DNA of 39,362 bases from Candidatus Cybelea sp. (lineage in GTDB: Bacteria > Vulcanimicrobiota > Vulcanimicrobiia > Vulcanimicrobiales > Vulcanimicrobiaceae). Below the pieces are notes generated by a model. The model saw only the letters and a program-made list of their open reading frames with translations, searched no databases and was not told where the DNA came from. The position numbers were made by a program, and so were the translations under genes. Positions 10,431 to 20,286 of the stretch are shown one piece after another; position 1 is the first letter of the stretch, and every line of letters begins with the position of its first letter. The stretch covers positions 104,585 to 143,946 of the forward strand of contig DASXFZ010000064.1 of NCBI GenBank assembly GCA_036489315.1, read 5' to 3'.

Positions 10431-11291
10431 CTACGATTCCTGCGGCAGCAGCAGATCGCCCAAGCGCACGAGCTCGCCGTCGTTCTGAAAACGCAGCTCG
10501 ATCCGGCCGCCGCGGCCGGTGCGGACGAGGGCAACGTGCGTACCGAAGCGCTCGCGCAGGCGCCGTTCGAAATCGTCTTCGTCGGGGGAGAGCCCGCGCG
10601 GTACCCGATCGTCCTTATGGCGCGCCGGCGCGTCGGCGTTTGCAAGCCGCTCGAGACTGCGTACCGTCAGTCCTTCGTTTACCGCGCGCCGCGCGAGCGG
10701 CATTCGCTGTGCATCCGGCGCCGCCAATAACGCGCGCCCGTGGCCGGCGGAGAGTTCGCCGTTTACCAGCATCGCCTTGATCGTCTCGGAAAGGCCGAGC
10801 AGACGCATCGCGTTGGCGACGGCCGGGCGGCTCTTGCCGAGCCGGCGCGCGACCTCTTGTTGCGTGAGCGCGTGCTCGTCGATCAGGTATTGAAAGCCGG
10901 CGGCCTCCTCCAGCGGATTCAAGTTCTCGCGCTGCAGATTTTCGACGATGGCCAGCTCGAGCGTTTCGCGGTCGTCGCTAGTGCGAACGATCGCGGGAAT
11001 CGCGTTTCGCTGCAGTGCAGCGCACGCGCGCCAGCGCCGTTCACCGGCGATGAGCTCGTACCCGTCGTCGCGCCGGCGGACGATGATTGGGACGAGGACG
11101 CCGTACTGCGCAATCGACGCTTTGAGTTCGTCGAGTGCGTCGCCGGCGAAGTGCTTTCGCGGTTGAAACGGATTGGGCGTGATCTGCCCGAGCGGTATCT
11201 CGCGTACGATCTCCTGCGAGCTGGTGACCGGCACCGAGTTCTCGCCGAGCAGGGCGGCCAGTCCTCTGCCCAAACCGCGCCGTGCGGTCAC
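10431..11291 (-). CDS. parB: Chromosome-partitioning protein ParB
   Basis: ParB is a CTP-dependent DNA clamp that loads at parS sites, spreads, and with ParA segregates the origin region. The 286-residue protein starts at the GTG overlapping the parA stop (GTGA, 11288-11291). The N terminus RRGLGRGLAALLGE is the classical ParA-stimulating peptide. The N domain follows with ITPNPFQPRK, the CTP-binding ELIAGERRWRA and the conserved AIVENLQRENLNPLEEA. A helix-turn-helix (LTQQEVARRLGKSRPAVANA) provides parS recognition. The C-terminal dimerisation region ends LGDLLLPQES. Two parS-like elements lie about 2 kb upstream on the same transcript path. A much longer open frame upstream of this GTG is shadow of parA and cca. 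Confidence 0.95.
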   Translation of the reverse strand: MTARRGLGRGLAALLGENSVPVTSSQEIVREIPLGQITPNPFQPRKHFAGDALDELKASIAQYGVLVPIIVRRRDDGYELIAGERRWRACAALQRNAIPAIVRTSDDRETLELAIVENLQRENLNPLEEAAGFQYLIDEHALTQQEVARRLGKSRPAVANAMRLLGLSETIKAMLVNGELSAGHGRALLAAPDAQRMPLARRAVNEGLTVRSLERLANADAPARHKDDRVPRGLSPDEDDFERRLRERFGTHVALVRTGRGGRIELRFQNDGELVRLGDLLLPQES

Positions 11292-12061
11292 GCCGAAGCT
11301 CGAGCTGGTTCGAGCATCTCGCGCGCAACCGCAATATAGGCTTGCGCGCCGCGGCTCTTGAGATCGAAAAGAATTACAGGCTTCCCGAACGAGGGTGCTT
11401 CGGATAGCCGCACGTTGCGGGGAATTTGCGTTTTGAACATTTCGCGCGGAAAGTACTTCTCCAGTTCGCGAATCACTTCGAGCGCCAAACGAGTGCGGCC
11501 GTCGAACATCGTAACCAACACGCCGCTGACGTGCAGCGTCGGATTGAGCGCGTCGCGTACCCGCCAGATGACGTTGGTTAGCTGCGCGAGGCCTTCGAGC
11601 GCGTAGAACTCGGCCTGCACTGGGATGATGCAATCCTGTGCCGCAGTCAGCGCGTTGATCGTTAGTAAGCCGAGCGACGGAGGAGAGTCGATCAACACGA
11701 AATCGTACGAGCTCTCCAGCGGCGCGAGCGCTTGACGAAGACGCGTTTCGCGCGAAAGCGCCGCGACCAGTTCGACGTCGGCTCCGGCGAGATTGATCGT
11801 GGCCGGAGCGAGGCTGAGATTCTCGACCTCCGTGCGCACGACGACGCTTTCGAGCGGCGCCTCCTGGAGAAGCGCGTGGTAGACGTCGCGCTCCAACTGC
11901 GTTTTGTTGACGCCCAATCCGGTCGTCGCATTGCCTTGAGGATCGGTGTCGACGACGAGGACGCGCCGTCCGAGCATCGCTAACGCCGCGCCAAGATTCA
12001 CCGCCGTCGTGCTTTTCCCGACGCCGCCCTTCTGATTGACGAGCGCGATGATGCGGCCCAG
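11288..12061 (-). CDS. parA: Chromosome-partitioning ATPase ParA (apparent CTG start)
   Basis: ParA is a deviant Walker ATPase that binds the nucleoid and moves ParB-parS complexes. Reading from CTG 12061 gives 257 residues with the motifs in place: GRIIALVNQKGGVGKSTTA (Walker A, residues 11-18), VVDTDPQGNATTGLG (Walker A'), and DFVLIDSPPSLGLLT (Walker B). The first ATG/GTG/TTG in frame is GTG 12001, which begins after the Walker A lysine and would give a dead protein. No standard start exists between the previous in-frame stop and that point. A GGAG sits exactly 7 nt before the CTG. I therefore infer CTG initiation. The cca stop lies just upstream, and parB is coupled through GTGA. Confidence 0.88.
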   Translation of the reverse strand: MGRIIALVNQKGGVGKSTTAVNLGAALAMLGRRVLVVDTDPQGNATTGLGVNKTQLERDVYHALLQEAPLESVVVRTEVENLSLAPATINLAGADVELVAALSRETRLRQALAPLESSYDFVLIDSPPSLGLLTINALTAAQDCIIPVQAEFYALEGLAQLTNVIWRVRDALNPTLHVSGVLVTMFDGRTRLALEVIRELEKYFPREMFKTQIPRNVRLSEAPSFGKPVILFDLKSRGAQAYIAVAREMLEPARASA

Positions 12062-12073
12062 AACTATTCTCCG
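12060..12073 (-). promoter_or_regulatory. Ribosome binding site deciding the CTG start of parA
   Basis: On the minus strand the sequence CTCGGAGAATAGTTCTG places a GGAG seven bases before CTG. This spacing is ideal for initiation, while no ATG, GTG or TTG in this frame gives a complete ParA. The same bases contain the end and TAG stop of cca, so ribosomes finishing cca are delivered directly to this site. Confidence 0.6.
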
Positions 12074-17424: not shown

Positions 17425-18780
17425 TTATTTCCCGATGCAAAAGCGGGAGAAGATACCGGCGATTATTTCTTCGGCAGCCACCGGCTCGCTTACATGCCCA
17501 AGCGCTGAAAATGCACGTGCGAGCTCCGTCGCGGCGAAATCGACTGGTTCGCCCGCAGCGAGCGATTCGAGAGCCTGGCGCAGCGCGGCGAGCGCGTCGT
17601 TGACGGCCTCGAACTCGTGCAGCGCCGCTAAATGTGGACGCGTCGCGTCGAAACTCGCTCCGCGCCAACCCGCCTGCGCGATCGCGTCGCGCAAGGCTTG
17701 GAGCGTCGCCGGTTCGCGGACGCTTCCGGCGACGGCTTCCGGAAGTCGGCGCGCAAGGGCCGCGTCGGCCCCCAGATCGGCCTTGTTGAGGTAGAGAATG
17801 CGAGTCTTTTCCGACGTGCGTTCGAGGAGCCGATCGGCGTCGGGGCCCGAAGGCTGGGAGCCGTCAAGCACGACCAAAGCGATGTCGGCCGCCTCGAGGG
17901 CCGCCTGAGATCGGGCGATTCCGGAGGCCTCCAGGCGGTCGGCATGGCTGCGGATTCCGGCGGTATCGATTAACCGGACGGGGACGCCGTCGACGGCGAG
18001 GACCTCCTCAATCGTGTCGCGGGTCGTTCCGGGGATCTCCGAGACGATCGCCCGCTGCGTGCCCAGCAGGGCATTGAGCAGCGAAGATTTGCCGGCATTC
18101 GGGGGCCCCACGATCGCCACCGCTAGGCCCTCCCGCAGAACGCGCCCCGCCTCACCATCCAGTCTCAGGCGCTCGAGCCGCTCGTAAAGCGGCGCGATCC
18201 GCTGCGCGAGGGCGGCGCGATTCGGTTCGGGGACCTCGTCGGGAAAATCGATCGCTCCCTCGAGCTCTTCGACGACTGCCCGCAGCCCGGCGCGAGTTTC
18301 CCGGACCTCGCCGCCGACGCCGCTCTCGAGATTTGCCAGCGCTGCGCGGGCGGCGCGCCGCGTCTGGGCGTCGATGAGATCGGCGACCGCGGCCGCTTCG
18401 TGCAGCCCTAGCTTGCCATTGAAAAAAGCGCGGCGCGTGAACTCCCCGGGCTGGGCGAGACGGGCCCCGCCACCGAGCAGGGCGCGAACGACTTCCCGCA
18501 CGACCACCGGAGACCCGTGAGTCTGCAGCTCGAGCAGGTCCTCGCCCGTGTAGCTGTGCGGCGCCGGAAAAAGCAGCGCCAGGCCGTGGTCGAGCGGTTC
18601 GCCGCTTTCATCCAGCAGCGTCGCTCGAGTGGCGATCCGCGGCCGAAACGGGGACTTGGTACGCACGAAGCGCTTTGCCAGCCGGTCCACGGCCGGCCCG
18701 CTGATGCGGACGATGCTGACGGCGCCGGTTCCGGGCGGCGTCGCAACGGCGACGATCGTCTCGTCAGGTACCGTCGTCAG
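17425..18780 (-). CDS. mnmE: tRNA modification GTPase MnmE (apparent CTG start)
   Basis: MnmE is the folate-binding GTPase that, with MnmG, modifies U34 of tRNAs. Reading from CTG 18780 gives 451 residues, the usual length. The N-terminal TrmE domain begins TTVPDETIVAVATPPGTGAV, then IVRISG, matching the family's start. The G domain has GPPNAGKSS (residues 225-233), the switch motif EIPGTTRDT and the G3 motif DTAG. The protein ends in the invariant FCIGK. The first ATG/GTG/TTG in frame is GTG 18690, which would delete 30 conserved residues including the ATPPG and RISG motifs. The CTG shares bases with the jag stop (CTGA), the same coupling used at many junctions here. Confidence 0.9.
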   Translation of the reverse strand: MTTVPDETIVAVATPPGTGAVSIVRISGPAVDRLAKRFVRTKSPFRPRIATRATLLDESGEPLDHGLALLFPAPHSYTGEDLLELQTHGSPVVVREVVRALLGGGARLAQPGEFTRRAFFNGKLGLHEAAAVADLIDAQTRRAARAALANLESGVGGEVRETRAGLRAVVEELEGAIDFPDEVPEPNRAALAQRIAPLYERLERLRLDGEAGRVLREGLAVAIVGPPNAGKSSLLNALLGTQRAIVSEIPGTTRDTIEEVLAVDGVPVRLIDTAGIRSHADRLEASGIARSQAALEAADIALVVLDGSQPSGPDADRLLERTSEKTRILYLNKADLGADAALARRLPEAVAGSVREPATLQALRDAIAQAGWRGASFDATRPHLAALHEFEAVNDALAALRQALESLAAGEPVDFAATELARAFSALGHVSEPVAAEEIIAGIFSRFCIGK

Positions 18781-19382
18781 CGAGGAAAAATTACGACGCG
18801 CCGTTCCGGCTCTTCGCCTTCCGATTCCGTGCGGACGAGCTCCGAATCGGCGAGCGCCAGATGAACGATCTTTCGCTCGGAGGGCAGCATCGGCTCGAGC
18901 TTCTGCGGCGCTTTCTCACGCACGCATCGCTCGAGGGTCGCCAGCGCAAGGCTTTTGAGCTGCTCGGCGCGATGCGCGCGGTAGCCTTCGGCGTCGATCG
19001 TATAGTAGTGCCGATTGTTGCGCACGCCGGCATTGAAGGCGTTGTTGAAGACGAGGTTGAGGGCTTCGAGGGTGTTGCCGTGGCGCCCGATGAGCATCCC
19101 GAGGTGCGGCCCCGCGACCTCCAAATACTCGCCTTCGGGGCGGGAAATGTAATAAATCTCGGTCGGGCCGCCGCCCATTCGCTCCAAGATTTCACGCAAG
19201 AGCTCTCCCGCGGGCTTCGCCTCGTCCGGCAGCTCGGCGGCCTGGCGCGCCGGAGGACCGCTGCGCCGGGTATCGCGCCGCCGCGTACCGCCGCCGCGGC
19301 CGCCGCCCGACTTTCCGCCGATAGTGCGGTCCCGAACGTCGGCGGGCTGCTCCTCGAACTCGAAATCGTCTTCGTACAACAT
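18777..19382 (-). CDS. jag: RNA-binding protein Jag/KhpB (KH and R3H domains)
   Basis: Jag-type proteins bind RNA and affect cell elongation; they are usually encoded next to yidC. The protein is 201 residues. An acidic N terminus (MLYEDDFEFEEQP) leads to a glycine/arginine-rich linker, then a type II KH domain with LIGRHGNTLEALNLVFNNAF (the GxxG loop is GRHG). The C-terminal R3H domain contains LEPMLPSERKIVHLALADS. The typical Jag_N domain is absent and replaced by the short acidic region. ATG 19382 is chosen; upstream residues in frame are shadow of yidC. Its TGA stop overlaps the mnmE CTG. Confidence 0.92.
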   Translation of the reverse strand: MLYEDDFEFEEQPADVRDRTIGGKSGGGRGGGTRRRDTRRSGPPARQAAELPDEAKPAGELLREILERMGGGPTEIYYISRPEGEYLEVAGPHLGMLIGRHGNTLEALNLVFNNAFNAGVRNNRHYYTIDAEGYRAHRAEQLKSLALATLERCVREKAPQKLEPMLPSERKIVHLALADSELVRTESEGEEPERRVVIFPR

Positions 19383-19404
19383 GATTGGTGCTTTCTTACG
19401 AGCC

Positions 19405-20286
19405 TTATTTGTTCTTACGCTTCGACCGCGAGGAACGCGCCGAGCGTTGCGGATTGGATTTTGCGACACCGTTGCCGCTCGAGATCGCCTTCGCACCGTT
19501 CTCTTTCGGCTTGCCCGCATCGGCTCCGACGCTTTCGGTAATCGGGTGCTCGCTGTCGATGAGCGCGAGTGGTTGATGGTAGCGCCGCAGTAAGAAAAAC
19601 TGCTGTCCCATCGTTAGGATATTGTAAGAGAACCAGTACAGGACCATCGCCGATGGCCAGTGATAGCGCCAGCCGAAAAAGCCGAGCATCACCGGAGATA
19701 TCCAGGCCATGGTGCGCTGCATCTGTGCCTGCTGAGGATCGGTCGCCGGCTGGCTGACGTAGCGGATGCTGAAATACATCGAGGCCGCGTAAAACAGAAT
19801 CAAAATGAGATCGGGAACCGCGAGGCTCGCGGCAAAGACCGGCGTTCCGAAGATCGCCGGGGCGCTCGCCCCTTTGGTAAAGGCGCTGCCGATCCAGAGC
19901 CAATTCTGATTTGCGAAGAGACCTTTGTGATTGAGCACGACGTAGTAGACGCTGATGATCACCGGGTACTGGACCAGCATCGGCCAGCAGCCTGCGAGCG
20001 GGTTCACGCCGTGCTCTTTGTAGAGCGCCATCGTCTCTTGCTGCTGCTTCTGACGATCGTCTTTGTACCGTTCCTGCACGCGTTTGAGCAGCGGCGCGAT
20101 CTTCTGCATCTTGATGAACGCTTTGAACTGCGCGGTATTGAGCGGCCAGAAAACCAGGCGAATCAGCGCCGCCAGGATGATCAGGCTCCAGCCGAGGTTG
20201 CCCACCGGCTTGTCGATCGCCATCACGACCCCAGAGAGAAAATTGACGATGGGATCGAGCCACGACGCCGCGAGAAGAAGGTGCAC
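19405..20286 (-). CDS. yidC: Membrane protein insertase YidC, short form
   Basis: YidC inserts and folds inner-membrane proteins, alone or with SecYEG. This is a 293-residue form with about five membrane helices: a first helix near residue 10-25, NLGWSLIILAALIRLVFWPL containing the conserved groove arginine (R42), the helical hairpin of charged residues 55-95, and three more helices to LYWFSYNILTMGQQFFLL. It lacks the large periplasmic P1 domain found in proteobacterial YidC. The C-terminal tail is strongly basic (RSARSSRSKRKNK), probably for ribosome contact. GTG 20286 lies 3 nt after the yidD stop. Confidence 0.93.
   Translation of the reverse strand: MHLLLAASWLDPIVNFLSGVVMAIDKPVGNLGWSLIILAALIRLVFWPLNTAQFKAFIKMQKIAPLLKRVQERYKDDRQKQQQETMALYKEHGVNPLAGCWPMLVQYPVIISVYYVVLNHKGLFANQNWLWIGSAFTKGASAPAIFGTPVFAASLAVPDLILILFYAASMYFSIRYVSQPATDPQQAQMQRTMAWISPVMLGFFGWRYHWPSAMVLYWFSYNILTMGQQFFLLRRYHQPLALIDSEHPITESVGADAGKPKENGAKAISSGNGVAKSNPQRSARSSRSKRKNK

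Follow-up and report, generated by a model that had tools for sequence, protein, structure and literature searches.

A candidate CTG start codon for mnmE at the jag stop, and recurring near-cognate starts in its bacterial family

The window analysed here, 39,362 nucleotides of a Candidatus Cybelea sp. genome (GCA_036489315.1, contig DASXFZ010000064.1, positions 104,585 to 143,946), carries an mnmE gene whose conserved 5' end lies upstream of every standard start codon in its frame, which raises the question of where translation of this gene begins. The source is a draft genome of 3.09 Mb in 64 contigs, and the closest named relatives of its mnmE carry the label Candidatus Eremiobacterota. The one available NTG codon is CTG. 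PMC11497404 describes CUG as initiating poorly in E. coli and as not common among bacterial starts, and PMC5622118 reports that two of 61,358 AUG starts reconstructed across 36 genome groups changed to CUG, a count that presumably depends on existing annotation. PMC4611024 lists AUU, AUC, and AUA among bacterial starts and places the non-canonical ones under IF3 discrimination. Our literature searches yielded nothing relevant on Eremiobacterota start codons, translation, or annotation among the matches listed, and nothing on point among those listed for rpsA non-AUG/AUC starts.

On the minus strand jag ends with CCT CGC TGA, and the mnmE frame reads CTG ACG ACG GTA CCT GAC GAG ACG ATC GTC GCC from position 18780, giving the conserved MnmE N terminus LTTVPDETIVAVATPPGTGAVSIVRISG (Table 1). 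Between the upstream in-frame stop and GTG 18690 the frame holds no ATG, GTG, or TTG; CTG 18780 is the single NTG between that stop and the conserved block, and 52 open codons precede the T of TIVAVATPP. Alignments to the NCBIfam MnmE models begin 5' of GTG 18690, at frame residue 51 for one model (profile position 3) and at residue 58 for the other (profile position 1). The frame and these alignments bear out the observation, made in an earlier note on this DNA, that the conserved N terminus precedes GTG 18690, and the sequence confirms that the frame reaches a CTG overlapping the jag stop. The same note had likened this junction to ATG and GTG overlaps elsewhere in the window, and we read three of these: GTG 1113 with an ORF end at 1116, GTG 31661 with 31664, and ATG 32263 with 32266. 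The 5' boundary of jag is provisional, ATG 19520 being the longest candidate start only.

Table 1. Features of the mnmE and parA loci, in window coordinates
Feature	Position	Strand	Basis or remark
Candidate mnmE CTG start, overlapping the jag stop as CTGA	18778..18780	-	sole upstream NTG; no Shine-Dalgarno match
mnmE, tRNA-modifying GTPase, 451 codons counted from CTG	17425..18780	-	NF003661, TIGR00450
jag TGA stop	18777..18779	-	sequence reading
jag/eloR, upstream of mnmE	18777..19520	-	NF041568, E 2e-33, under model cut-off
GTG, first standard start of mnmE frame, internal	18688..18690	-	23 codons past conserved T of TIVAVATPP
parA CTG start codon	12059..12061	-	aligned with ATG/GTG/TTG elsewhere; no NTG upstream in open frame
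GGAG Shine-Dalgarno site, 7 nt 5' of parA CTG	12069..12072	-	
parA, ATPase with NQKGGVGK motif, followed by parB	11288..12061	-	motif and neighbour

We propose that mnmE would be initiated at CTG 18780 by ordinary fMet-tRNA: ribosomes that end jag at its TGA would shift back by one base and reinitiate at the CTG, and the protein would begin with formyl-Met and read (M)TTVPDETIVAVATPPGTGAVSIVR. No Shine-Dalgarno site would be needed here because of the reinitiation from the overlapping TGA. More broadly, about one to a few percent of the genes in the family would keep a near-cognate start, CTG or one of ATC/ATT/ATA, backed either by a stop-start overlap, as at mnmE, or by a Shine-Dalgarno site, as at parA. 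We hold this account as a whole, jag-coupled reinitiation together with the family set of near-cognate starts, to be probable from the comparisons that follow.

The jag-mnmE junction was read in 34 genomes (30, with 4 added) belonging to the source genome's GTDB family, and in 11 of them the open mnmE frame has no ATG, GTG, or TTG anywhere; the whole-frame test covered 14 loci lacking a start, the other three belonging to another family and having distant NTGs. Candidate starts in the 11 frames are CTG in seven and NTA within a stop overlap in three, with nothing obvious in one. The CTG forms a CTGA overlap in four of these seven (the source genome, G013, G011, and G027), and in a fifth it directly follows a TAG. 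The start lies 3-7 codons from the conserved anchor; its place varies from genome to genome by a few codons, with no fixed column. Each of the 76 mnmE loci from other phyla has a standard start no more than 16 codons before its TI anchor; by the same criterion, 23/34 loci of Eremiobacterota have one (Fisher 5e-7, locus L031 being excluded as a duplicate of L020; p = 0.08 when controls are limited to the 10/76 with GC >60%). On a tree of 40 MnmE proteins the non-standard label, carried by 12 rows of which two are uncertain (G020 and G045, labelled 'none'), requires 10 changes against a mean of 10.5 for shuffled labels; because these values are so similar, the non-standard start comes and goes. 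Most of the comparison genomes look like metagenome bins.

Several of these loci show less familiar arrangements. The NTA overlaps are CTA in CTAG (G002), GTA in GTAA (G026), and ATA in ATAG (G022) (loci L010, L016, and L030), and mnmG of G007 (L116) has TTA in TTAG where most other genomes have ATG; such would-be starts would pair only very weakly with fMet-tRNA. In G020 the mnmE frame (L026/L129) opens seven codons past a TAA and has no NTG or ATH before the conserved core, so some mnmE cases need yet another start. Genus g26 (G045, G048, G050) has no NTG nearby, its NTGs lying at least 34 codons upstream; the likely jag stop sits in ACTAA (G045, L255), ACTGA (G048, L258), and ATTGA (G050, L259), and in G050 the ATT of this five-nucleotide overlap may be the start.

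The second CTG gene that the earlier note had reported in this window is parA, whose CTG 12061 aligns with the standard starts of relatives. It lies between a CCA transferase gene and parB; no NCBIfam model matched it at E 1e-40. Of the 18 family loci that contain parA, eight carry CTG three codons before IIALVNQKGG and lack a standard start within 25 codons. ATT occupies the site in one locus, and in the others ATG, GTG, or TTG is found there or close to it. Two of the CTG loci carry an in-frame stop 6 and 11 codons upstream, and there is therefore no room for another start. In a wider search of 99 family genomes, two sequence patterns matched parA in 58, with CTG as first codon in 40, TTG in 9, ATG in 7, GTG in 1, and ATT in 1; the proportions hold for matched genomes only, since the 42 missed by the pattern have a differing N terminus. 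The first base was A, C, or T in 57 matches (the single GTG came from the overlapping pattern), and the eight other HTH codons that the pattern permits did not occur. All 49 Leu-type codons at the start site end in TG. At an internal Leu position in these 57 matches CTC is commonest (32), and 18/54 Leu codons end in TG (p = 2e-14 for the comparison). The third base is thus held at G at the parA start. Correspondence in position between CTG and the ATG, GTG, or TTG of relatives is found for parA and in part for mnmE. In other phyla all 26 readable parA genes have a standard start; 4 of the 30 control loci had been dropped for a missing motif, and GC exceeds 60% in 5/26.

The two genes differ in what surrounds the start. 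Counting a match of at least 4 bases located 4-10 nt 5' of the start, a Shine-Dalgarno site accompanies all nine non-standard parA starts (eight CTG and the ATT), 3/7 of the ATG/GTG/TTG parA starts, and 7.5% of 20,000 random positions. It accompanies none of the 10 near-cognate mnmE starts, 7 of which share a four-base overlap with the jag stop. CTG thus appears to be used in two modes, assisted by a Shine-Dalgarno site at parA and coupled to upstream termination at mnmE, where the source genome combines the CTGA overlap with the lack of an independent Shine-Dalgarno site expected of termination-reinitiation. PMC10666635 describes termination-reinitiation at ATGA/GTGA overlaps; the arrangement there is alike in its four-nucleotide stop-start overlap without a Shine-Dalgarno site, whereas its starts are ATG or GTG and those proposed for mnmE here are CTG, or NTA in NTAG/NTAA overlaps.

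The earlier note had explained its two CTG starts by a more relaxed initiation rule and had looked to IF3 and tRNA-fMet for unusual changes. The first part stands insofar as parA, lpxB (see below), and the orthologous sites of relatives indicate that CTG works as a start; an altered machinery finds no support. IF3 of the source genome aligns over its full length with solved IF3s, and the single initiator tRNA read there is standard, with a CAT anticodon, three G:C pairs (GGG/CCC) in the anticodon stem, and C1:A72; most relatives contain an identical anticodon-loop string. Six pattern matches to an initiator tRNA with a CAG anticodon, in 5/41 genomes, were discarded, as the scan of 4 of these loci found no tRNA. 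The 3' end of 16S rRNA matched the exact pattern in 2/41 genomes, the source genome not being one of them, and is normal in both; this scarcity would fit the absence of rRNA from many bins. In these two genomes the 790 and 1338/1339 regions agree with the E. coli sequence. Where it could be read, then, the machinery gives no sign of alteration at the sequence level.

A near-cognate start of infC (AUU, AUA, or AUC) serves IF3 autoregulation, and this holds to form in the class: all 15 motif-readable infC loci of 30 start with ATT, ATA, or ATC, the source genome with ATA. Like mnmE and parA, infC is a conserved gene kept at a near-cognate start; its start is non-NTG, with a third-base mismatch that acts as an IF3 sensor, whereas the CUG of mnmE and parA is mismatched at the first base.

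Near-cognate starts of the ATH type are also predicted elsewhere. In the source genome the initial 84 codons of rpsA, which encodes ribosomal protein S1 (C64:5223-6395, L191:5223-6395, minus strand), contain no ATG, GTG, or TTG. The gene seems to begin at ATC; an ATT lying two codons further 5' is another possible start. An in-frame stop lies 3-5 codons upstream of this ATC in the source genome, G010, and G013, with no NTG between. A pattern that also permitted ATG matched rpsA in 31 of 99 family genomes and returned ATC in 26, ATT in 3, ATA in 2, and ATG in none, the matched ATH being confirmed as the start by upstream reading in three genomes only. As read from these frames, AUH starts occur beside CTG starts in the lineage.

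For frequency, we assessed 898 conserved frames in 400-kb samples of the source genome (143), G010 (294), G013 (302), and G044 (159), the last from another family of the class. The scan flagged 74 frames without a standard start, of which 15 were accepted on reading; these include two of the usual infC cases and two uncertain ones (mreC in the source genome, cobA in G013). The remaining 11/898, five of them CTG, are mnmE, parA, and lpxB (CTG) and rpsA (ATC) in the source genome; rpsA and putrescine aminotransferase (ATC) in G010; mnmE (CTG), rpsA (ATC), and the aminotransferase (ATT) in G013; and smc (ATC) and pth (CTG) in G044. This is an undercount, because the criterion demands that the whole frame lack a standard start. 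ATG, GTG, and TTG are the great majority of starts, and CTG is a minority start in the source genome (3/143). The survey beyond the window that the earlier note had called for thus found a third CTG gene, lpxB, which has GTG in G010 and G013. Among the flagged frames not accepted, three are formate dehydrogenase and the others were judged tails of overlapping genes.

Some of these genes merit separate description. The putrescine aminotransferase start, ATC in G010 (L212:1594-2976) or ATT in the G013 ortholog, lies three codons past a TGA and is preceded by a conserved GAGGTGACCGAAA leader found in 5/60 genomes. In G044 the ATC of smc stands behind GAGG, and pth probably starts at CTG with GGAG upstream (L311:4398-7955 and L303:6925-7542). 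In the mreC frames of the source genome (L196:4353-5192) and of G013, GTC or ATC corresponds to the GTG of G010; the start of mreC is just beyond the window, and in the source genome a GGAG is found 8 nt 5' of the ATC. Formate dehydrogenase alpha (G010 L215:17877-19517; orthologs in G013 and G044) has an in-frame TGA just before HAPSV that probably encodes selenocysteine.

A tally of aligned starts between genome pairs, at first swamped by shadow frames and conserved overlapping upstream genes, gave CTG at 14/470 starts after cleaning, most of them with another NTG nearby. Four rows survived (lpxB twice, parA, and mnmE of G013), and an additional G013 row without a nearby NTG was left out because it resembles a shadow frame. 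G044 was too divergent from the family genomes for a clean tally. Two GC-rich Sinorhizobium pSymB replicons, a small and close pair, yielded 70 aligned starts, none of them a CTG for which no other start was available. The no-start scan flagged 55/203 of their frames, a rate no lower than in Eremiobacteria. This control is weak because the two species are too similar.

Of the alternatives for mnmE, the one that survives best, with a small share of the probability, is that a neighbouring near-cognate codon (ACG 18777 or 18774, GTA 18771, or ATC 18756) serves as the start and the CTG is incidental. The ATC/ATT/ATA starts of the family and the G020 mnmE, which lacks any CTG, lend it some weight, but the CTG falls exactly at the stop overlap here and likewise in G013, G011, and G027, and the conserved E/D-T before the I speaks against ATC 18756. 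Ribosomal frameshifting near the jag stop, producing a Jag-MnmE fusion that would make a start codon unnecessary, is improbable. The mnmE frame is indeed open into jag for 52 codons in the source genome, 133 in G013, and 150 in G026, yet the offset varies from a one-frame overlap in the source genome to the same frame after the stop in G017 and G020, the jag stop lies far upstream of mnmE in G005 and G008, and no shared slippery site was seen by eye; parA, moreover, has the CTG habit with a Shine-Dalgarno site, and a fusion is unnecessary there. Still harder to credit is a MnmE without its first strand, begun at GTG 18690. This internal codon is the earliest start available in the standard set, but the 30 residues lost would be ones that are conserved at the protein level across the class and form the beginning of the MnmE profile. 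Least probable is an error in this draft of 64 contigs that hides a true ATGA or GTGA, given that CTG is repeated at mnmE of other genomes and at parA in 40 genomes.

Initiation of mnmE at CTG 18780 thus remains the preferred reading. Near-cognate starts are already known; their recurrent, conserved use in this lineage, as predicted here, is new. In Deinococcus deserti, proteomics by Baudet and colleagues in 2010 reportedly found non-canonical starts, a case alike in that non-standard starts of a bacterium were unannotated; the evidence here differs in being comparative and family-wide, and for one gene CTG is the start seen most often. Tentatively, the near-cognate starts of Eremiobacteria may be stable signals under selection and not accidents that are merely tolerated, and together with infC they may mark a set of genes throttled by IF3 and including parA and rpsA. 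If so, chromosome partition and the supply of S1 would be tied, through the IF3 throttle, to the condition of the initiation machinery. If CUG is indeed the commonest start of a core gene in this family and S1 does not begin with AUG, gene callers that accept only ATG, GTG, and TTG would truncate or miss essential proteins in the family, which would offer a natural system for studying the evolution of start-codon discrimination.
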